From contig NZ_JAIVFP010000001.1 in assembly GCF_022760755.1 (NCBI RefSeq), positions 3,142,001 to 3,206,000 on the forward strand: 64,000 nt of DNA. Reading direction: 5' to 3'. This stretch comes from Candidatus Rhodoblastus alkanivorans (GTDB taxonomy: Bacteria; Pseudomonadota; Alphaproteobacteria; Rhizobiales; Beijerinckiaceae). Within the stretch, counting starts at the first letter, position 1; every line of letters starts with the position of its first letter. The position numbers and the translations under genes are program-made. This document shows, piece after piece, positions 46,219-64,000 of this stretch. The notes under the pieces are model-generated. The model did no database searches. It saw only the letters and a program-made list of their open reading frames with translations, and had not been told where the DNA came from.

Positions 46219-46695
46219 TCACGCGCGGGGCCGCAGTCTGGAGTCCTGTTTCGGGTCGGCCCAGGTCGGACTGAGGGTTTCGAGCACTTCCGCGCGGTTC
46301 GCGGATATGTCCGCGATCGTGGTCGAATCCAGCACTTCGAGGAAGGCGTTGCACGCCCGCTTGAACGTCTTGCCGAGACGGCACAGCCCGATCAGCGGAC
46401 AAGTGTTGGTCACCGCGTCGAAACATTCGACCAGATTGAGGTCGTCCTCGGTCTTGCGGACGATCTCGCCGACGGTGATGTCCTCCGCCCTTTTGGCGAG
46501 ACGAAAGCCGCCTTTCCGGCCCCGCACATTTTCAAGATAGCCCCAAAGCCCAAGCCGATGCACGCATTTCACCAGATGCGCCTTGGACACGCCGAATGTT
46601 TCGGCGACCTCCTGCACGGTGACGAGTTCGCCCCTGCGCATCGTCGCGATCATCAGGATCCGCAATGCGTAATTGGTGTAGCTGGTCAAACGCAT
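46219..46695 (-). CDS. nsrR: Rrf2-family transcriptional regulator, NsrR type
   Basis: 158 residues beginning MRLTSYTNYALRILM, the hallmark start of NsrR. Winged helix VQEVAETFGVSKAHLVKCVHRL and RGRKGGFRLAKR wing. The Fe-S region LVECFDAVTNTCPLIGLC supplies three cysteines with the C-x7-C-x5-C spacing of NsrR [4Fe-4S]/[2Fe-2S] proteins, so it probably senses nitric oxide. It lies at the 3' end of the dsr operon, 85 bp after the DsrC-like gene, with a hairpin and an AATGT-T-ACATT dyad before it. Confidence 0.82.
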   Translation of the reverse strand: MRLTSYTNYALRILMIATMRRGELVTVQEVAETFGVSKAHLVKCVHRLGLWGYLENVRGRKGGFRLAKRAEDITVGEIVRKTEDDLNLVECFDAVTNTCPLIGLCRLGKTFKRACNAFLEVLDSTTIADISANRAEVLETLSPTWADPKQDSRLRPRA

Positions 46696-46779: not shown

Positions 46780-47118
46780 TCAATAGCCGCCCTTGCGCCG
46801 GCTTTCGGCGACGCCGGCGATCCGGCCGCCCTGCTTCGACGGATCGAGCGGGAAAAGATCGTAGAGCGTCTTCTGATCGACCCTTTCACCCCATTTGTCG
46901 GACATCGCCTTGATGATCGTCCGCGTATTGGGCGTGCTCTGGTTGTTTTCGAAATATTCCTCACGCAGGTAATCGATCACATCCCAATGACGAGGCCCGA
47001 GTTCGATCCCGTCAAGCTTGGCGACATATTCGGCGAGTTCGCGGCTCCAATCCTCGGGATCGCTCAGATAGCCGGTCGCGGTCGTCTGGATTTCCTTGCC
47101 TTGAAATTCATAGCTCAT
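46780..47118 (-). CDS. DsrC/TusE-fold protein lacking both C-terminal cysteines (RspA-like)
   Basis: 112 residues from the ATG at 47118 (upstream in-frame codons are not used). The DsrC fold is clear: WSRELAEYVAKLDGIELGPRHWDVIDYLREEYFENN and SKQGGRIAGVAESRRKGGY at the C terminus. Genuine DsrC ends in a penultimate Cys and carries a second one about ten residues before; this protein has neither. Cys-free homologues in sulfur bacteria are grouped as RspA-type and are thought to be regulatory or DNA-binding. It lies 20 bases after dsrN, so it is in the dsr transcript. Confidence 0.85.
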   Translation of the reverse strand: MSYEFQGKEIQTTATGYLSDPEDWSRELAEYVAKLDGIELGPRHWDVIDYLREEYFENNQSTPNTRTIIKAMSDKWGERVDQKTLYDLFPLDPSKQGGRIAGVAESRRKGGY

Positions 47119-56884: not shown

Positions 56885-57008
56885 AGCGACCTCACTGGTT
56901 GAATGAGCGAGTCATGCTCGCTGCAACACATATTCGAATTTGAGCGCCCACCTGACAATGAACTGGGTCAAAGTCCCGGTCCGCTCGTCAGTCTTTCCGA
57001 AAAGCAAG

Positions 57009-57037
57009 CCGCCGCGTCGCCTGCCGACGCGACGGCC
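57009..57037. repeat. Hairpin between dsrB and dsrE
   Basis: On the minus strand GCCGTCGCGTC-N7-GACGCGGCGGC forms an 11-bp stem with one G-U pair, eight bases after the dsrB stop, followed by TTGCTTTTCGG. It may slow transcription or protect dsrAB mRNA, so dsrAB could be expressed above the rest of the operon. Confidence 0.6.
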
Positions 57038-57044
57038 CAGCCGA

Positions 57045-58124
57045 TCAGAAGTGAACGTGCGCCGACATGTTCATGGTCTTGCGCGCGCCGACCCAGGTAT
57101 CGAGGTGATGCTTGGTGAAGGCGAAGCCGGTCAGCTCGAAGAAACGCGGCCAGCCGATGCGCTCGATCCACTCGCCGAGACGCTCCCAATTCTTGGCGTT
57201 GTCCTTGTAAGCGTAGAGGATCTTGTGGACGACCTCTTCAACCTCCGGCCAGCGCGGCGGATTGTTCGGCAGATTGGCGACGACCAGCTTGTGGAACGTC
57301 GGCTTGGAGCGGGCGTTGGAATGTTTGCCGCCAACCCAGACCGCGATCTTGGTCGAATCCGCGCCATTGATCTGCATCGGCGGACAGGGCGGATAGCAAG
57401 CGCCGCAGCACACGCATTTCTGCTCATCGACTTCGAGCGACGGCTTGCCGTCGACCAAAGCCGGGCGGATCGCGGCGACCGGGCAGCGCGCGACGACGGC
57501 CGGACGTTCGCAGACCTTGGCCACCAGATCGTGATTGATCTTCGGCGGCTTGGTGTATTGCACGTTGATCGAAATGTCGCCCTGGCCGCCGCAGTTGATC
57601 TGGCAGCAGGAGGTGGTGATGCGCACGCGGTTCGGCATTTCCTCCTTGATGAATTCCTGATGCATCATGTCCATCAGGCTCTTCACCACGCCGGAAGCGT
57701 CGGTGCCGGGAATGTCGCAGTGCAGCCAGCCCTGGGTGTGCGAGATCATCGACACCGAATTGCCGGTGCCGCCGATCGGGAAGCCTTCCGCGTTCAGCGC
57801 GTCGATCAGGGGCTGAACCTTGGCCTGGTTGGAGACCATGAACTCGATATTCGAGCGGGTCGTGAAGCGGACATGACCCTCGGCGAATTTATCGCCGATG
57901 TCGCAGAGCTTGCGGATGGTGAAGATGTCCATCTGGCGCTGGGTGCCGGCGCGCACGGTCCAGATCTCGTCGCCGCTCTTGGCGACGTGATGGAGAACGC
58001 CGGGACGCGGGCGGTCGTGCCAGGCCCAGTTCCCGTAGTTCTTCTTCATCACCGGATGCATATACTGGAAGGGATCCGGAACGCCCGTTTCATCGGGGCG
58101 GCGCAAAGTGGGGGCGCTGCTCAT
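57045..58124 (-). CDS. dsrB: Dissimilatory sulfite reductase beta subunit (DsrB)
   Basis: 359 residues. Sirohaem/Fe-S site (TTSCCQINCGGQGDISINVQ), then ferredoxin clusters CERPAVVARCPVAAIRP and CVCCGACYPPCPPMQI. Catalytic partner of DsrA; in this operon it should work in the oxidative direction. A 71-bp gap separates it from dsrA. Confidence 0.97.
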   Translation of the reverse strand: MSSAPTLRRPDETGVPDPFQYMHPVMKKNYGNWAWHDRPRPGVLHHVAKSGDEIWTVRAGTQRQMDIFTIRKLCDIGDKFAEGHVRFTTRSNIEFMVSNQAKVQPLIDALNAEGFPIGGTGNSVSMISHTQGWLHCDIPGTDASGVVKSLMDMMHQEFIKEEMPNRVRITTSCCQINCGGQGDISINVQYTKPPKINHDLVAKVCERPAVVARCPVAAIRPALVDGKPSLEVDEQKCVCCGACYPPCPPMQINGADSTKIAVWVGGKHSNARSKPTFHKLVVANLPNNPPRWPEVEEVVHKILYAYKDNAKNWERLGEWIERIGWPRFFELTGFAFTKHHLDTWVGARKTMNMSAHVHF

Positions 58125-58195
58125 ACGTTGTCCTCCGAGAGAAAATTATGGCTTTTCGGCTCCGCTTCCGCGGGGCCGGATTGTTGCGGCGGCGA

Positions 58196-59503
58196 TCAGT
58201 CGGCGGCGACATCGAGGCCGGCTTCGCGGGCCTTGCGCTCGAAATATTTCTCCGCCTCGTCGGTGAAGTCGTCGGTGCGCACATAGCAGGACGTGCGCGG
58301 ATGATTGACCATGTTCGGGTCCGGCTCGATCTCCATCGCCTCGAGGAACATCGGCAGGCCGATGCGGTCGATGGTCTCGCCGATGCGCTCGTGCTCCAGC
58401 GCGTTGTCGGCGAAGAAGTCCAGCATCCGGCGGGCCAGCGCCACCAGATTCTCGTAATCCTCGTCGCTCTCGAGCTTGACGAAGGGAATGAGCATCGTGC
58501 CCATCAGGTCGCCGACCTTGAGCGCGCGCTTGCCGCCGACCAGGATCGAGGCGCCCTTGTCGTCGCCCGGCGCCAGCGCCTTGTTCATCACGTTCAGGCA
58601 GTGCATGCAGCGCACGCAGCTCTTGTTGTCGACATCGAGCGTGTCGTCGTCGTTGAGCGACAGCGCGCGGGTCGGACACATGGCGATGACATGGTCGATC
58701 GCATATTTGCGCCCGACCCGGCCGACATAGGCCTTCACCTCGTCCTGATTGACCTTCATGTCGTCGCGCCAGGTGCCGATCACCGCGAAATCGGCGCGAT
58801 GGATGGCGTTGACGCAATCATTGCCGCAGCCCGAGAACTTGAACTTGAACTTGTAGGGCAGCGCCGGACGATGCATCTCGTCCAGAAACTCGTTGATCAC
58901 CGAGCGATGCGCCTTGACCTCGTCATAGCAGGACATCTCGCAGCGGGCGTGGCCGACGCAGCTCATCGAGGTGCGCAGCGCCGGGCCGGCGCCGCCGAGG
59001 TCGAAGCCGATCTCGTTCAATTCGTCGAAGGCCGGCTGGACGTTCTCGCTCGAACAGCCCTGGAACATGATGTCGCCCGACTGGCCGTGGAAGGCGATCA
59101 GGCCCGAGCCGTGCTTCTCCCAGATGTCGCAGAGCTGGCGCAGGACATTGGTGTCGTAATGCATGCCGGCCGGGGGCTGGACGCGCAGGGTGTGGAATTC
59201 TTTGGAAGCCGGATATTTGTCGGCGACTTCGGAAAAGCGCGGAATGACGCCGCCGCCATAACCGAACACCGAAACCGTGCCGCCCTTCCAGAAGCCGAGG
59301 CGCTCCTCATAGGAATGTTCGAGCTGGCCGAGAAGGTCGTTCATCATCGGCGCATATTGCGCGTCGGCGTTGTCGCGCAGACGCTTCAGCCCCGACACGA
59401 AGCTCGGCCACGGACCGCTCTCAAGCTCGTCGAGCATCGGCGTGGGATGATGATCGGCGGGTGCGCCCTGCCCTTCCGTGCGAATGGAATCGTCTTGCGA
59501 CAT
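58196..59503 (-). CDS. dsrA: Dissimilatory sulfite reductase alpha subunit (DsrA)
   Basis: 435 residues from the ATG at 59503 (GGGAGGTACATA upstream). Sirohaem and [4Fe-4S] cysteines: CVGHARCEMSC and FSGCGNDC, and a C-terminal ferredoxin CPTRALSLNDDD and CVRCMHCLNVM. The tail DPNMVNHPRTSCYVRTDDF is typical. First gene of the 14-gene operon dsrABEFHCMKLJOPN; reverse (oxidative) rather than reducing type is inferred from DsrL, DsrEFH and DsrN being present. Confidence 0.97.
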   Translation of the reverse strand: MSQDDSIRTEGQGAPADHHPTPMLDELESGPWPSFVSGLKRLRDNADAQYAPMMNDLLGQLEHSYEERLGFWKGGTVSVFGYGGGVIPRFSEVADKYPASKEFHTLRVQPPAGMHYDTNVLRQLCDIWEKHGSGLIAFHGQSGDIMFQGCSSENVQPAFDELNEIGFDLGGAGPALRTSMSCVGHARCEMSCYDEVKAHRSVINEFLDEMHRPALPYKFKFKFSGCGNDCVNAIHRADFAVIGTWRDDMKVNQDEVKAYVGRVGRKYAIDHVIAMCPTRALSLNDDDTLDVDNKSCVRCMHCLNVMNKALAPGDDKGASILVGGKRALKVGDLMGTMLIPFVKLESDEDYENLVALARRMLDFFADNALEHERIGETIDRIGLPMFLEAMEIEPDPNMVNHPRTSCYVRTDDFTDEAEKYFERKAREAGLDVAAD

Positions 59504-59657
59504 TATGTACCTCCCTGGGGCGCTTAGCGGGAACTTGCATGCGCCACACATTAGACCGCGGACCTTGGCGGACTACCCCGCCTCCGGCCGCTCGTTTTCT
59601 TTAGTTGTTGCGATCATAACAGAAAATGCGAATATGAGAATAGGTGGAGGAAAAAAA

Positions 59658-59693
59658 ATGAAGATTTTCCAGTCAGGGGCAAAATGCAAATGA
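59658..59693 (+). CDS. 11-residue leader ORF coupled to the TauD-like gene
   Basis: ATG at 59658 after GGTGGAGGAAAAAAA, a very strong Shine-Dalgarno, encodes MKIFQSGAKCK and stops at a TGA (59691-59693) which overlaps the ATG at 59690 of the next frame (ATGA). This layout is typical of leader peptides or translational coupling; the Cys-Lys end is unusual. Below normal gene-calling length, so annotation programs would miss it. Confidence 0.5.
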   Translation: MKIFQSGAKCK

Positions 59694-60622
59694 GCGCAAT
59701 AGCTTACAAGGAGGAACCGCCCACCGGGGACAGATGGAGTCCCGCGGTCTTTTCGCTTGAGGACAGCGATTCCTGGCGCCGCTGGCGACAATTCAAGCTC
59801 GGTCGAGTCGAGGCGGCGCTCGGCTGCGCGCCGACGACGATCGAAAATCCGCGCGCGGTCTCGCAAGCGGAGCGCAAATCCCTGCTGGCGCAGGTCGCGG
59901 CGACCAATTTCGCGCTTTATCAATGGCGCGCCGCGGCGCCGGATGAAAACGCGCTCGACGAATGGCTGCTCGCTTTCACCAATTCCTTCGGCTTGCGCGC
60001 CCGCGAAGATCATCGCTCGGCCAATGGCAATGGCGTGGTGCGGATCGAAGTCGCCCGCGAAGGCGGCCGCGCCGGCTATATCCCCTACACCGACCTGCGA
60101 ATCGCCTGGCACACAGACGGCTATTACAATTATCACGGCCCGGCGAATTGCGTGCGCGGCATGATTCTCCATTGCGCGGCGGCGGCCTCGGAGGGTGGCG
60201 AAAATCGCGTGCTGGACCACGAACTCGCCTATCTGCGATTGCGCGACGCCGACGAACAGGCCCTGCGCCTGCTGATTCGCCCCGACGCCATGACCATTCC
60301 CGAGGCGACCGACGAATCGGGCCGGTTTCGCGCGACCAATTCCGGCCCGGTGTTTTTTCTCGACAATTCGGGCGCGCTGACCATGCGCTACACCGCGCGG
60401 AAAAAATTCGTCGAGTGGCGCGACGAGGAGACCCGCGCGGCGGCCGATCTTCTGCTCTCGCTCATCGACGCGGACCCGCTGGTCAGCCGCGTCAGGCTTG
60501 CGCCCGGCCAGGGACTTTTGTGCAATAACGTCCTGCACGACCGCACCGCTTTCCGCAACGACGAGAACAGCTGGCGGCGCCTGTGCCGGATCCGGTTCCA
60601 CAATCGCATCGACATGAATTAG
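59684..60622 (+). CDS. TauD/TfdA-family Fe(II)/2-oxoglutarate dioxygenase
   Basis: 312 residues from the ATG at 59684 (or 310 from the ATG at 59690 that overlaps the leader stop). Facial triad: AWHTDGYYNY (His and Asp of HxD) and the distal His in NNVLHDRTAF; the 2OG-binding Arg is probably one of those in RLCRIRFHNR. The family oxidises sulfonates, sulfate esters, betaines and others. Beside dsr and a YeiH exporter, an organosulfonate or organosulfur substrate is the tempting inference, because such oxidation releases sulfite, but substrate is unproven. Confidence 0.85.
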   Translation: MQMSAIAYKEEPPTGDRWSPAVFSLEDSDSWRRWRQFKLGRVEAALGCAPTTIENPRAVSQAERKSLLAQVAATNFALYQWRAAAPDENALDEWLLAFTNSFGLRAREDHRSANGNGVVRIEVAREGGRAGYIPYTDLRIAWHTDGYYNYHGPANCVRGMILHCAAAASEGGENRVLDHELAYLRLRDADEQALRLLIRPDAMTIPEATDESGRFRATNSGPVFFLDNSGALTMRYTARKKFVEWRDEETRAAADLLLSLIDADPLVSRVRLAPGQGLLCNNVLHDRTAFRNDENSWRRLCRIRFHNRIDMN

Positions 60623-60631
60623 GAGGAAACC

Positions 60632-60832
60632 ATGGCCCGAATCAGTGAACTCATCATCATGAATCCGGAAATGAACAGTTTCGCGGAACTGGAAAAGAAA
60701 GTCGTCCAGGCCGCGCGCGACGGCGAAATCCACCTTTATATGGACATCAAGCCGGAATATCCCGACACGCCCAACAAATGGGAGCACAGGCTGGAACAGG
60801 CGTTCTACGCCGCCGAAAGCCCGCGCCGATGA
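60632..60832 (+). CDS. Small acidic protein, 66 aa, in the TauD-like operon
   Basis: Not recognised. Starts after AGGAGGAAACC, 10 bases past the dioxygenase stop. Sequence ARISELIIMNPEMNSF then an amphipathic helix and EIHLYMDIKPEYPDT. No cysteine. Small soluble protein, possibly a regulator or partner of the dioxygenase. Its stop overlaps the ATG of the next gene (ATGA). Confidence 0.75.
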   Translation: MARISELIIMNPEMNSFAELEKKVVQAARDGEIHLYMDIKPEYPDTPNKWEHRLEQAFYAAESPRR

Positions 60833-61047
60833 CGACGGCGCCGAGACGGGAAGTCGGCGAGATCGAGGCGCCCTATCGGCGCCGGATCAAACTCGACGAA
60901 GTCGCCTATGACAGCGGCATGACCCTCCTGCGCCTGACCATCCGGGAGGGCGCGCGCTACACCATTCTCGAAATCGACGCCCCCGCCGCCGAGGCGTGGG
61001 GGCGGATGATGCTCGATTGGGCGCAGGCGCAGAAAACTGGCGATTGA
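60829..61047 (+). CDS. DUF6967-like small protein, 72 aa
   Basis: 72 residues from the ATG at 60829. IKLDEVAYDSGMTLLRLTIR followed by ILEIDAPAAEAWGRMMLDWA resembles the DUF6967 group (my recall; not searchable here). Beta-rich N half, helical tail. Coupled to the previous gene through ATGA. Function unknown. Probably the last gene of the leader-dioxygenase operon. Confidence 0.65.
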   Translation: MTTAPRREVGEIEAPYRRRIKLDEVAYDSGMTLLRLTIREGARYTILEIDAPAAEAWGRMMLDWAQAQKTGD

Positions 61048-61089
61048 TCGATAAAAACGAACGATTCGACCAGAAATATGCGATAGATT

Positions 61090-61106
61090 GAATGTACGAA
61101 ACATTC
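61090..61106. promoter_or_regulatory. Dyad before the YeiH-type gene
   Basis: GAATGT-ACGAA-ACATTC is a perfect 6-5-6 inverted repeat, 36-52 bases before the exporter ATG, in an AT-rich gap. Candidate operator; YeiH homologues are often controlled by LysR proteins, but no LysR gene is nearby. Confidence 0.5.
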
Positions 61107-61141
61107 GATAATGCGATGGTTTAGAGAGGGTAAACCGTCGC

Positions 61142-62170
61142 ATGAGCACCACATCCGCAACCAGTACGGCAATTCACAAGAAGCACCCTGTCCTCGCCCT
61201 GGCGCCGGGCCTCGCCCTGACCATCGGCATCACGCTGGTGGCCTATGCGTTGCGCCTGATCCCGGGCGTGGACAAGTTCAGCCCGATGATCCTCGTCATC
61301 CTGATCGGCGCGCTGGTCCACAACACCGTCGGCGTCATACCCGGCACGGGCGAAGGCGTCACCTTCTCGCTTAAGCGCATCCTGCGTCTCGCGATCATGC
61401 TGATCGGCCTTCAGATCACCGCCCAGGAGGCGGCGCAGGTCGGTTTCCACGGTCTCGCCATCATCATCACCGGCCTGCTCGCGACGCTGACGGCGACGAT
61501 CCTCATGGGCCGCTTTCTGGGCGTCTCGCGCGGCCTTTCGCTGCTGATCGCGGTCGGCACCTCGATTTGCGGCGCGTCGGCGATCGTCGCCGCCAAGGCC
61601 GCGACGGGCGGCGAGGACGACGACGCCGCCTATGCCGTGGCCGGCGTGACCTTGTTCGGCACCACCGCCATGTTCCTCTATCCGGCGCTGAAGGGCATTC
61701 TTCACCTGAACGGTCTCGATTTCGGCCTGTGGGCCGGCTCGTCGGTGCATGAAGTGGCCCAGGCGGTGTTCGCCTCCTCGCAGGGCGGCAAGGAAGCGCT
61801 CTATATCGGCACCATCGCCAAGCTGACCCGCGTCGCGATGATGGCCCCGGTGATCATCGTGCTCGGCGAAGTTTACGCCCGCATGGGCCTTTCCGGCGAA
61901 GGCGCGGGCAAAAGGCCGCCGTTCCCGTGGTTCCTCATCGGCTTCCTCGCCATGTCGGCGCTGAACAGCCTGGTCACGATCCCCCACGTCATCATGGACC
62001 CCGTCCGCGGCGCGACGACCTTCCTGCTGTCGATGGCCATGGCGGCCATGGGATTGCACACCAATCTCCGCCATGTCTTCTCGGCGGGCGTCAAACCGCT
62101 GGCTTTGGGCCTGTTCGCCTCGGCCTTCATCAGCCTCTGGGCGCTGGCCCTGATCAAGCTGACCATGTGA
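61142..62170 (+). CDS. YeiH / UPF0324 family anion exporter
   Basis: 342 residues, ten to eleven membrane helices across the length. UPF0324 motifs: FSPMILVILIGALVHN, LRLAIMLIGLQIT, VGTSICGASAIVAAKA and GSSVHEVAQAVFA. The family is annotated as sulfate or sulfite exporters. Placed beside an operon that forms sulfite in the cytoplasm, export of sulfite is the natural inference. Followed by a terminator hairpin. Confidence 0.9.
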   Translation: MSTTSATSTAIHKKHPVLALAPGLALTIGITLVAYALRLIPGVDKFSPMILVILIGALVHNTVGVIPGTGEGVTFSLKRILRLAIMLIGLQITAQEAAQVGFHGLAIIITGLLATLTATILMGRFLGVSRGLSLLIAVGTSICGASAIVAAKAATGGEDDDAAYAVAGVTLFGTTAMFLYPALKGILHLNGLDFGLWAGSSVHEVAQAVFASSQGGKEALYIGTIAKLTRVAMMAPVIIVLGEVYARMGLSGEGAGKRPPFPWFLIGFLAMSALNSLVTIPHVIMDPVRGATTFLLSMAMAAMGLHTNLRHVFSAGVKPLALGLFASAFISLWALALIKLTM

Positions 62171-62179
62171 TTTTCGGTC

Positions 62180-62208
62180 GGCGGCGAAGGAAAGCTTCGC
62201 CGCCGTCT
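62180..62208 (+). terminator. Terminator hairpin after the YeiH-type gene
   Basis: GGCGGCGAAG-GAAAG-CTTCGCCGCC is a perfect 10-bp stem with a 5-base loop starting 10 bases after the stop at 62170. The tail GTCTTG is only weakly T-rich. Confidence 0.6.
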
Positions 62209-62334
62209 TGACATCCGTCACGTGGCTGAAATGATACGAATGTGATAATGTGTTGCGCCATACCAGAGCGCAGCCTCATCAAGTTTCGCCGTCGGGGCGT
62301 TCAGCCCGGCGGCGGTTTTCTCAGGGGAGGAATC

Positions 62335-63117
62335 ATGACTGACGCTGTTTTGGGACGTAGAGACGCCATCCTGGCCATGGGCCTCGGGCTCACCGCCGCG
62401 CTCGCCGCCGACGGTTCGGCCAAGGCCGCCGAATCGATGGTCCTTCCCGCCGGTTCGAGCACGCTGGCGGATCTGGTCGCCAAGCTCGAAAAGGCGCCCC
62501 GCCGGCGCGATTTCAAGTCCGTCCCGATGATCCTCACCGACAAGAATTATTGGGACCATGAGGCGCTCGCCGACGTTCTGTCCTATCGCGGTTCGCCGCG
62601 GCAGGCCTGGGACAACACCGACATCGCCAGCCCGTGGCTGAACGGCATGCGCAATGCGCTCAACGCCCAGGTCTTCGGTTTCAAGCACGCGAACTTCCTC
62701 GTCGTCTCCGCGACCCATGGCACCGCGCATTTCGCCCTGCTCGACCAGGCGATGTGGGACAAATATCAGCTCGCCAAGCTGATCAAGGACAAGTTCGAGA
62801 AGAACACCTTCATTGCCGAGCAGCCAGGCGCCAAGGCCGATCCCAAGGATTTCGAGAACGCCGAAGGCGTCTTCTCCGGGCACAACGTCTCGATTCCTGC
62901 GCTGATGCGTCGCGGCGTCGTTTTCCTCGCCTGCCACAACACCATGTGGGAAGTCTCTGAGAAGCTGATGAAGGCCGGGATCAATCCCGACAAGCTTTCG
63001 CATGACGCGATGGCCGCGGAATTGACCAACCACATCATCCCGGGCTGCGTCCTGACGCCCGGCATCGTCGGCACTCTCCCCGAACTCGCCGCGGCCGGCT
63101 ATTCCTACGTGAAATAA
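62335..63117 (+). CDS. Tat-exported DsrE-fold protein
   Basis: 260 residues from the ATG at 62335 (GGGGAGG upstream; in-frame codons before are not used). Twin-Arg signal GRRDAILAMGLGLTAALAA ending AKAA. The C-terminal half has the DsrE/YchN-like core, including VVFLACHNTMWEV (single conserved Cys) and IIPGCVLTPGIVGTLPELAAAGYSYV. It is the periplasmic counterpart of a sulfur-transferase fold. Four bases of typical operon spacing are exceeded (11 bp) before the binding protein gene. Confidence 0.8.
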   Translation: MTDAVLGRRDAILAMGLGLTAALAADGSAKAAESMVLPAGSSTLADLVAKLEKAPRRRDFKSVPMILTDKNYWDHEALADVLSYRGSPRQAWDNTDIASPWLNGMRNALNAQVFGFKHANFLVVSATHGTAHFALLDQAMWDKYQLAKLIKDKFEKNTFIAEQPGAKADPKDFENAEGVFSGHNVSIPALMRRGVVFLACHNTMWEVSEKLMKAGINPDKLSHDAMAAELTNHIIPGCVLTPGIVGTLPELAAAGYSYVK

Positions 63118-63128
63118 GGATCGCAGAC

Positions 63129-64000
63129 ATGAAATTTCTTTCACGCGCGGCGTTCTTCGCCGCCGCGGCGCTTCTGGTCGCCGGCGCATCCGCCGGGGCG
63201 CGGGCGGAAAATGTGAAGCTGCGTCCTGATTTCGCTCCGCCGTGGCAGGGCGGCGCCAATAATGACGTCGCTCCGGCCCAGCGCGGCCTCGACTTCACCG
63301 AGCCGGACGCCGACAATCTCGCGGATTTTCACGGCTCGCCGCAGGATCCGAAACTGACCCTGTACTTCGGCGGCAATTATTTTTTCGCCACCGCAGAACT
63401 GGTTGACACTTTCGAGAAGCAGCATCCCGAGTTCAAGGGCCGCATCTATTGGGAGACGATCCCGCCGGGCCTGCTCGCCCAGCAGATCAAGGCGGGCGGA
63501 ACGATCACGGTCGGCAATATGACCTGGACCGCGCAGGCGGACGTCTATTTCGCCGGACTCAGAAGGATCAAGCAATCCATCGACGAGGGCATAGTCGAAG
63601 CGCCGGCCGTTCCCTATGTCACCAATACGCTGACGATCATGGTTCCCAAGGGCAATCCCGCCCACGTGACCAGTCTGTCGGATCTCGGCAAGCCGAGCAT
63701 CAAGCTCGTCATGCCCAACCCGGCCTATGAGGGCATCGGACGCCAGATCAAGGCGGCGCTCGGCAAGGCGGGCGGCGAGGCTCTGGTCAAGGCCGTTTAC
63801 GAGACCAAGGTCGCCGACGGCTCGACGATTCTCACCCACATCCACCATCGCCAGACCCCGCTTTATCTCATGCAGGGCCGTGCGCAGGCGGGCGTCACCT
63901 GGCAATCCGAAGCGATCTTCCAGGAGAAGGCCGGCCACCCGATCGAGAACGTCGATATTCCCGACGCCCATAATGCGACGGCGATCTACGCCGGCGCCGT
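63129..64000 (+). CDS. ModA-like periplasmic substrate-binding protein, 3' end cut by the window
   Basis: At least 290 residues. Signal peptide (FFAAAALLVAGASAGARA), then a two-lobe binding domain: LTLYFGGNYFFATAELVDTF, VGNMTWTAQADVY, VPYVTNTLTIMVPKGNP and VMPNPAYEGIGRQI. The pattern resembles molybdate/sulfate-type family 11 proteins, but the N-terminal half is unusual. Likely cotranscribed with the DsrE-fold gene. The ligand is unknown; the frame is intact to the window edge. Confidence 0.75.
   Translation, partial: MKFLSRAAFFAAAALLVAGASAGARAENVKLRPDFAPPWQGGANNDVAPAQRGLDFTEPDADNLADFHGSPQDPKLTLYFGGNYFFATAELVDTFEKQHPEFKGRIYWETIPPGLLAQQIKAGGTITVGNMTWTAQADVYFAGLRRIKQSIDEGIVEAPAVPYVTNTLTIMVPKGNPAHVTSLSDLGKPSIKLVMPNPAYEGIGRQIKAALGKAGGEALVKAVYETKVADGSTILTHIHHRQTPLYLMQGRAQAGVTWQSEAIFQEKAGHPIENVDIPDAHNATAIYAGA

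Follow-up and report, generated by a model that had tools for sequence, protein, structure and literature searches.

We analysed a 64,000-nucleotide stretch of the Candidatus Rhodoblastus alkanivorans genome (the window; contig NZ_JAIVFP010000001.1, positions 3,142,001 to 3,206,000), in which a reverse Dsr (rDsr) operon on the minus strand is faced by six divergent genes on the plus strand (Table 1). The first three of the six, namely the tauD-like dsrQ, a small gene here called sm66, and a gene of the DUF6967 family, are densely packed: an AGGAGG site lies between the dsrQ stop and the sm66 start, sm66 and the DUF6967 gene overlap in an ATGA at 60829-60832, and a gap of 94 bases then precedes the gene of the UPF0324/YeiH family (YeiH). 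We are confident that dsrQ, sm66, and DUF6967 form a conserved accessory unit of rDsr and not a sulfonate-to-export system. Comparison shows the gene content, co-occurrence, and linkage of the unit, the intact oxygenase motif of DsrQ, and the retention of its partners where DsrQ has been lost.

A first-pass annotation of the window had proposed a divergent plus-strand block made up of a leader open reading frame (ORF) and six coding genes. The six genes and the tight spacing of the first three hold, but the span given for the block began at 56885, which falls inside the dsr operon, and the block itself starts near 59660. The leader, identifiable as an ATG at 59658 with 11 codons, was rejected, since it is not conserved and the aligned ATG in Rhodoblastus sp. 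17X3 opens the dsrQ frame itself. The assignments to the TauD family, UPF0324, and a binding protein were borne out by Pfam, and the two tiny proteins are real: in a codon comparison with one other species, Rhodoblastus sp. 17X3 (L029), dN/dS was 0.15 for sm66 and 0.15 for DUF6967, indicating purifying selection, with values of 0.24 for DsrQ and 0.20 for YeiH.

Table 1. Features at the divergent dsrA/dsrQ locus and at the far end of the dsr operon (window coordinates).
Feature	Position	Strand	Remarks
Rrf2-family regulator gene	46219-46695	-	After DsrC paralogue at dsr operon end; RirA/NsrR models closest, below cut-offs
DsrC-family paralogue	46783..47118	-	After dsrN; without C-terminal cysteines; TIGR03342 92.6 bits
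dsrA	58196..59503	-	First operon gene; NCBIfam over cut-off
dsrA/dsrQ intergenic region	59504..59683	no strand	Divergent
dsrQ (tauD-like)	59684..60622	+	Predicted Fe(II)/2-oxoglutarate oxygenase, 312 aa; PF02668 70 bits
sm66	60632..60832	+	66 aa, conserved; without named family
DUF6967 (PF22295)	60829..61047	+	72 aa; 84.9 bits
UPF0324/YeiH family (PF03601)	61142..62170	+	Putative anion exporter; PF03601 262 bits
Thiosulfate dehydrogenase (Tsd), Acidithiobacillus-type	62332..63117	+	NF052225 381.8 bits, cut-off 300
sbp, SBP_bac_11/ModA-like binding protein	63129..64000, continuing past the window (L002:7130-8122)	+	PF13531 181 bits, full protein

Loci gathered with DsrQ as the query comprised 26 others from the order (L003-L028) and 80 named loci (L029-L108); the latter are the best 80 of 589, so that the set is skewed to sequences close to the query. 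Although many of the 106 loci span just 3-4 kb, dsrA was within reach in 94. Across the 116 rows of the layout count (L003-L118, among them the window genome and some genomes more than once), the alphaproteobacterial order dsrQ-sm66-DUF6967 occurred 44 times, a betaproteobacterial order DUF6967-cas6L-rspA-(tusA2, Y)-dsrQ 38 times, and a gammaproteobacterial order dsrQ-sm66-cas6L-rspA 9 times, each divergent from dsrA, and DsrQ stood alone in 5 rows. The last of these orders is kept in two 1.1-Mb genomes, and in L142 sm66-DUF6967 persists divergent from dsrA without dsrQ. Separately, L138 and L145, from two genomes with a distant DsrA, have dsrQ downstream of dsrA-dsrB-dsrL in the same orientation, which shows that dsrQ can be linked to dsr without being divergent from it; a further genome of this kind (G203) has DsrQ far from dsrA.

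The additional proteins of the beta- and gammaproteobacterial units, scanned in one locus of each, match Cas6/Cmx6 (PF09559/TIGR02807), the DsrC family and, in the betaproteobacterial locus, a double (two-domain) TusA. Both scanned Cas6-like proteins exceed both curated cut-offs (118 and 128; 175 and 211 bits; TIGR02807, PF09559). Members of this type I-MYXAN Cas6/Cmx6 family stand in dsr-linked operons at L038:7939-8520, L093:11116-11799, L154:5792-6460, and other beta- and gammaproteobacterial loci (two identified by hidden Markov model, the rest by homology). CRISPR-like short direct repeats were found in none of the four loci checked (L038, L093, L154, and L186), on which basis a local CRISPR link was rejected there, and which suggests that a CRISPR annotation may mislead for these genes. 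All 55 DsrC paralogues with a GGY terminus lack the penultimate cysteine, and in 51 of them the final 26 residues are free of cysteine; the upstream cysteine is retained in three (L049, L070, and L112).

Among 199 genomes sampled from the order, dsrA was found by search in 26 and as a contig-end fragment only in two more (G011 and G059, loci L023 and L021). DUF6967 scored above its cut-off in exactly these 28 genomes and in 0 of the 171 others (Fisher p 1e-34, or 1e-30 with the strict 26, kinship not corrected); one match below the cut-off came from G061, a genome without dsrA. DsrQ was present in 25 of the 28 (25/199, window genome included), and the three dsrA genomes without it (G139, G073, and G190) belong to one genus, L142 being a locus from one of them. 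The dsrA and DUF6967 genes lie on a common contig in 24 of the 26 genomes with dsrA found by search: 22 of these have them divergent and within 2.6 kb, and 2 have them in the same orientation at a distance of about 14.7 kb; in the remaining 2 they are on separate contigs. DUF6967 thus tracks rdsr better than DsrQ does in the sampled order and could be used as a marker there.

In a phylum sample of 398 genomes, the 10 with DUF6967 were exactly those in which DsrA shares at least 65% identity with that of the window (three, G000, G022, and G025, overlap the order sample). DsrQ was present in all 7 genomes of this near type that were searched and in 29 of 43 with a more distant DsrA (47-54% identity). 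A class sample held 219 genomes of the class to which G396 belongs (assigned to Gammaproteobacteria through similarity to named loci); 75 of them had dsrA. The search covered 42 of these 75, selected by completeness and usually with a single genome from each family. Forty had DsrQ. The 42 main dsr loci carry dsrQ in 31, a Cas6-like gene in 34, and sm66 in 28, all divergent from dsrA; three loci have sm66-cas6L-rspA with DsrQ elsewhere in the genome, and two have a Cas6-like gene plus DUF6967 or Y without DsrQ (the DUF6967 of L162, seen in the genome search, was dropped by the overlap filter of the layout count). Four second dsrAB copies have no partner genes. DUF6967 is therefore a close companion of rdsr in alphaproteobacteria as sampled and forms part of the beta-type layout, and most of the gammaproteobacterial sample lacks it.

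DsrQ qualifies by motif as a predicted Fe(II)/2-oxoglutarate (2OG) oxygenase. Across 41 aligned sequences H143, D145, H285, and R298/R302/R304 are invariant, leaving the HxD...H triad and the 2OG arginine intact; going by the pattern of the family and by how DsrQ aligns with E. coli TauD, we take H143, D145, and H285 to be the expected iron ligands. Searched against PDB sequences, a profile of the 41 sequences matched TmpA best (1.9e-9), then DfmD, gamma-butyrobetaine dioxygenases, GlaH, AsnO, and clavaminate synthase; TauD, TfdA, and AtsK were not named among its 14 matches at E up to 10. Comparison with E. coli TauD by hhalign gave a probability of 3%, nonetheless aligning two iron ligands, and E. 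coli TauD as a tblastn query found no DsrQ at 1e-5. In the alignment to TauD, R298 falls on R266 and R302 on R270, presumably a contact to the taurine sulfonate, so that DsrQ may still act on an anionic substrate. Homologues of TauA and TauC were found in 0 of 115 loci (1.42 Mb, many loci short), with the E. coli positive-control locus detected, and a TauB-like ATPase in 4. DsrQ does not class as TauD proper: it is nearer to gamma-butyrobetaine/TmpA-type enzymes and has no linked TauA/TauC in these often short loci. The gene itself was described before: the available text of PMC7596348, citing Lenk 2012, already names the tauD-like gene beside dsr dsrQ and speculates on sulfonate oxygenolysis. 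The gene in the window, of the TauD family and transcribed away from the dsr cluster, corresponds to it; its partners sm66 and DUF6967 are hardly described. As a separate observation, the DsrQ profile matches twice, on separate contigs or at distant sites, in 13 of the 42 class-sample genomes (G579, G602, G624, G649, G650, G659, G663, G686, G687, G688, G701, G710, and G718).

The two small proteins were characterised through their conserved residues and predicted structures. In sm66, S5, L20, D38, P41, T46, P47, W50, E55, and F58 are invariant across 52 sequences, and the AlphaFold2 model has three helices (mean pLDDT 91.6). In DUF6967, E40, R43, and T45 are invariant across 69 sequences; its model (pLDDT 94) has the order beta-beta-beta-beta-alpha, a predicted PUR-like fold, and the nine best PDB chains in Foldseek, from four entries (fly, human, and Borrelia), were all PUR-alpha at a probability of 0.98-1.00. 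Sequence profiles of both proteins gave stray matches only against PDB chains, and the name DUF6967 was not found in the literature searched. Judged from the model, the case for nucleic-acid binding by DUF6967 appears evenly balanced.

The facing operon reads, on the minus strand, dsrA-B-E-F-H-C-M-K-L-J-O-P-N, followed by the DsrC paralogue and the Rrf2-type regulator. Products of dsrA, B, E, H, K, and O and the DsrC family score above NCBIfam cut-offs (DsrE, 167.5 bits versus 89.25; DsrH, 100.2 versus 49.2), and those of dsrF, M, J, and P have the respective model as their best match yet remain below it (DsrF just under, at 91.8 versus 94.15). We take two genes to be dsrL and dsrN from their positions and from matches to PRK12771 and to the cobyrinic acid a,c-diamide synthase family, respectively. 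With DsrL named in this way, dsrEFH and dsrL accompany dsrAB, as in an oxidative (reverse) Dsr system; a DsrD search of 53 phylum-sample genomes with dsrA had no match in any genome and none in its control either. The DsrC paralogue, which we presume to be RspA-like, is 50% identical to the copy in L093, and its beta- and gammaproteobacterial homologues are located in the divergent unit. The window genome also holds two more, solo dsrA copies with 98.8% DNA identity to the window dsrA over 1286 bases. They lie in an exact 3,270-bp duplication (L119:7222-10491 and L120:7569-10838, at about 2.256 Mb and 3.565 Mb of C1), with a 118-aa ORF on one side and, on the other, the gene of an Mrp/ApbC-like ATPase, which at 316.8 bits stays under its cut-off of 348. 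DsrQ and DUF6967 have a single match each in this genome.

Between dsrA and dsrQ, the stretch 59616-59643 (ATAACA, 8 bases, GAATATGAGAATAG) is common to the window, Rhodoblastus sp. 17X3, L030, L047, and L143, and a similar stretch is found upstream of the solo dsrA copy in L119. It may be an operator or promoter that these loci have in common. For dsrA, a weak sigma-70-like match lies at 59640-59613, and the region has 2 promoter-like sites versus 0.8 +/- 1.1 expected. No general operator motif was found across intergenic regions, just lineage-wise k-mers.

The second half of the plus-strand genes has a different distribution. What the first-pass annotation took for a periplasmic protein of the DsrE fold matches nothing in Pfam at E up to 1 and exceeds the curated cut-off of the thiosulfate dehydrogenase model; its N-terminus contains RR, compatible with export, and its start codon is uncertain (ATG at 62335, ORF open from 62242). 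Among 58 loci reaching at least 5 kb beyond dsrQ, YeiH occurs in 2, Tsd and the binding protein in 0, and an SQR-like protein in 6; a UPF0324 homologue is near the unit in the close relatives L029 and L143. Tsd occurs in 3 of the 199 order-sample genomes, two of them without a dsrA match (G087 and G120), and in G087 the Tsd-SBP pair stands alone. The proposed association with dsr is thus strong for dsrQ, sm66, and DUF6967 and does not extend to YeiH, Tsd, or the binding protein, to which the condition that the first-pass annotation set for its own refutation applies. Past the window end, the plus strand continues with the rest of the binding protein, a YeeE/YedE-like (Sulf_transp) transporter, a multi-domain c-type cytochrome (684 aa, SoxA/TsdA-type domain), and an SQR-like flavoprotein. 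An SQR-like flavoprotein also lies near the unit in several other alphaproteobacteria (L029, L030, L045, L047, L142, and L143). According to the available text of PMC6335251, tsd genes of Acidithiobacillus are located with sbp genes. Judging from its gene families, the second half belongs to an established type of thiosulfate/sulfide cassette, lineage-specific and docked beside dsr; on the best reading, it would contain the YeiH exporter, the thiosulfate dehydrogenase with its binding protein, the YeeE/YedE transporter, the cytochrome, and the SQR-like protein.

How the accessory unit might act can be proposed in outline. DsrQ would spend O2 and 2OG in hydroxylating some component of the rDsr machinery, either a partner or a small molecule; with its predicted PUR-like fold, DUF6967 would bind single-stranded nucleic acid, the simplest candidates being dsr mRNA and promoter DNA; and DUF6967 and sm66, joined in beta- and gammaproteobacteria by the Cas6-family protein and the cysteine-poor DsrC paralogue, would adjust rDsr production or assembly to oxygen and carbon status. 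Such a control role is tentative and in our view less likely than not, and the whole of our favoured reading, an rDsr accessory and control unit beside a separate thiosulfate/sulfide cassette, falls a little short of an even chance. Its most specific form is an O2/2OG-responsive control circuit at the nucleic-acid level, in which DsrQ senses O2 by partner hydroxylation, the cysteine-poor DsrC paralogue signals the sulfur load, and DUF6967 and/or a domesticated Cas6-family protein adjusts the dsr transcripts; we consider this unlikely as it stands. Several results weigh against these proposals. The Foldseek E-values of DUF6967 were just 0.2-0.6 with a TM of about 0.6, its profile found no PUR protein among PDB sequences, and the sm66 model had no fold match in a structure search. 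The PUR contact motif, K-x-N-x-R-x-x-F in the available text of PMC4764581, is partly kept in DUF6967: R/K39 is found in 68 of 69 sequences and R43 in 69 of 69, but G41 replaces the motif N in 58 of 69 and the aromatic residue is shifted, with F or I at position 44 in 65 of 69. DUF6967 is absent from all 43 phylum-sample genomes with a distant DsrA, 14 of which also lack DsrQ, and from 40 of the 42 class-sample genomes, and is therefore no universal part of rDsr. Within the class sample it occurs only in the two genomes without DsrQ (G582 and G628), which speaks against a mutual need of the two proteins. Six of the 42 class-sample dsr loci have no partner beside dsrA (two of these loci end 2.1 and 0.4 kb upstream), with DsrQ present elsewhere in all six genomes. 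Finally, the link to oxygen is inferred from the enzyme class and from a remark in the available text of PMC7596348.

Other explanations assign the genes differently. It seems improbable to us (i) that sm66 and DUF6967 serve as factors in the assembly or maturation of DsrQ, DsrAB, or the DsrC relay rather than as regulators at the nucleic-acid level. Dense packing and overlap within the dsrQ unit would suit such factors, as would the sulfur-relay character implied by the DsrC paralogue of beta- and gammaproteobacterial units and the two-domain TusA of the former, and the persistence of sm66 and DUF6967 without DsrQ would make DsrAB or DsrC the client; the predicted PUR-like fold and the Cas6-family membership of the extra protein point instead to nucleic acid, and the DsrC paralogues have lost the penultimate cysteine, mostly with every other cysteine of the C-terminal end. 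That (ii) DsrQ frees sulfite from sulfonates by oxygenolysis, so that the block feeds sulfur to or around rDsr, was also the first-pass idea and is the one named and proposed, with reference to Lenk 2012, in the available text of PMC7596348. PF02668 membership and the two arginines aligned on TauD agree with it, yet the absence of TauD-type enzymes from the profile matches, the low hhalign probability, the scarcity of Tau transport genes in loci that are often short, and the retention of DsrQ alongside relay-type genes in the two 1.1-Mb genomes leave it little support, and we judge it quite unlikely. A single system of sulfur supply and export made up of all six genes (iii) is very improbable: a common strand, short gaps, and the UPF0324 homologues of L029 and L143 would fit, but YeiH, Tsd, and the binding protein are rare or absent in the 58 long loci, Tsd and the binding protein occur together in a genome without a dsrA match, and the 94-base gap sets YeiH apart, so that this system is largely refuted.

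Reverse Dsr is a major microbial sulfur-oxidation route whose core genes are well studied, and small genes accompany it across alpha-, beta-, and gammaproteobacteria, even in 1.1-Mb genomes. Natural dsrQ-less loci and the partner list now make the substrate of DsrQ, and a role of PUR-like or Cas6-like proteins in energy metabolism, testable. If the proposed control circuit is real, we know of no earlier case of a post-transcriptional controller dedicated to an energy-sulfur pathway.

Parts of the locus resemble known systems to different degrees. Compared with the DsrQ of the literature, what is new here is the set of DsrQ partners, the predicted PUR-like fold of DUF6967, and the evidence against a taurine-dioxygenase role; sm66, DUF6967, the Cas6-like protein, and the DsrC paralogue are not mentioned in the available text of PMC7596348, Lenk 2012 may name neighbours, and the enzyme branch and distribution of DsrQ were tested in the present analysis. 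Among the literature matches listed, none bore on a connection of dsr to Cas6/Cmx6 or to divergently transcribed upstream genes. The two scanned Cas6/Cmx6 proteins resemble that family at the level of curated cut-offs and differ in sitting in a dsr-linked operon in which the loci checked have no CRISPR-like repeats. DUF6967 resembles PUR-domain proteins in its predicted four strands and one helix within a single short chain, as does Borrelia Bpur, described in the available text of PMC3764826 as a 122-aa single-repeat modulator that binds RNA and DNA, PUR repeats sharing this strand/helix layout; it differs in lacking a sequence-level match, in keeping the contact motif only in part, and in being known here as a predicted fold. 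YeiH, well above the PF03601 cut-off, is below that of the TIGR00698 subfamily (175.3 versus 232.6 bits). The Acidithiobacillus tsd-sbp arrangement, in the available text of PMC6335251, likewise has a thiosulfate dehydrogenase adjoining a sulfate/molybdate-type binding protein, whereas the pair in the window lies beside dsr and is followed by the YeeE/YedE transporter, the cytochrome, and the SQR-like protein.

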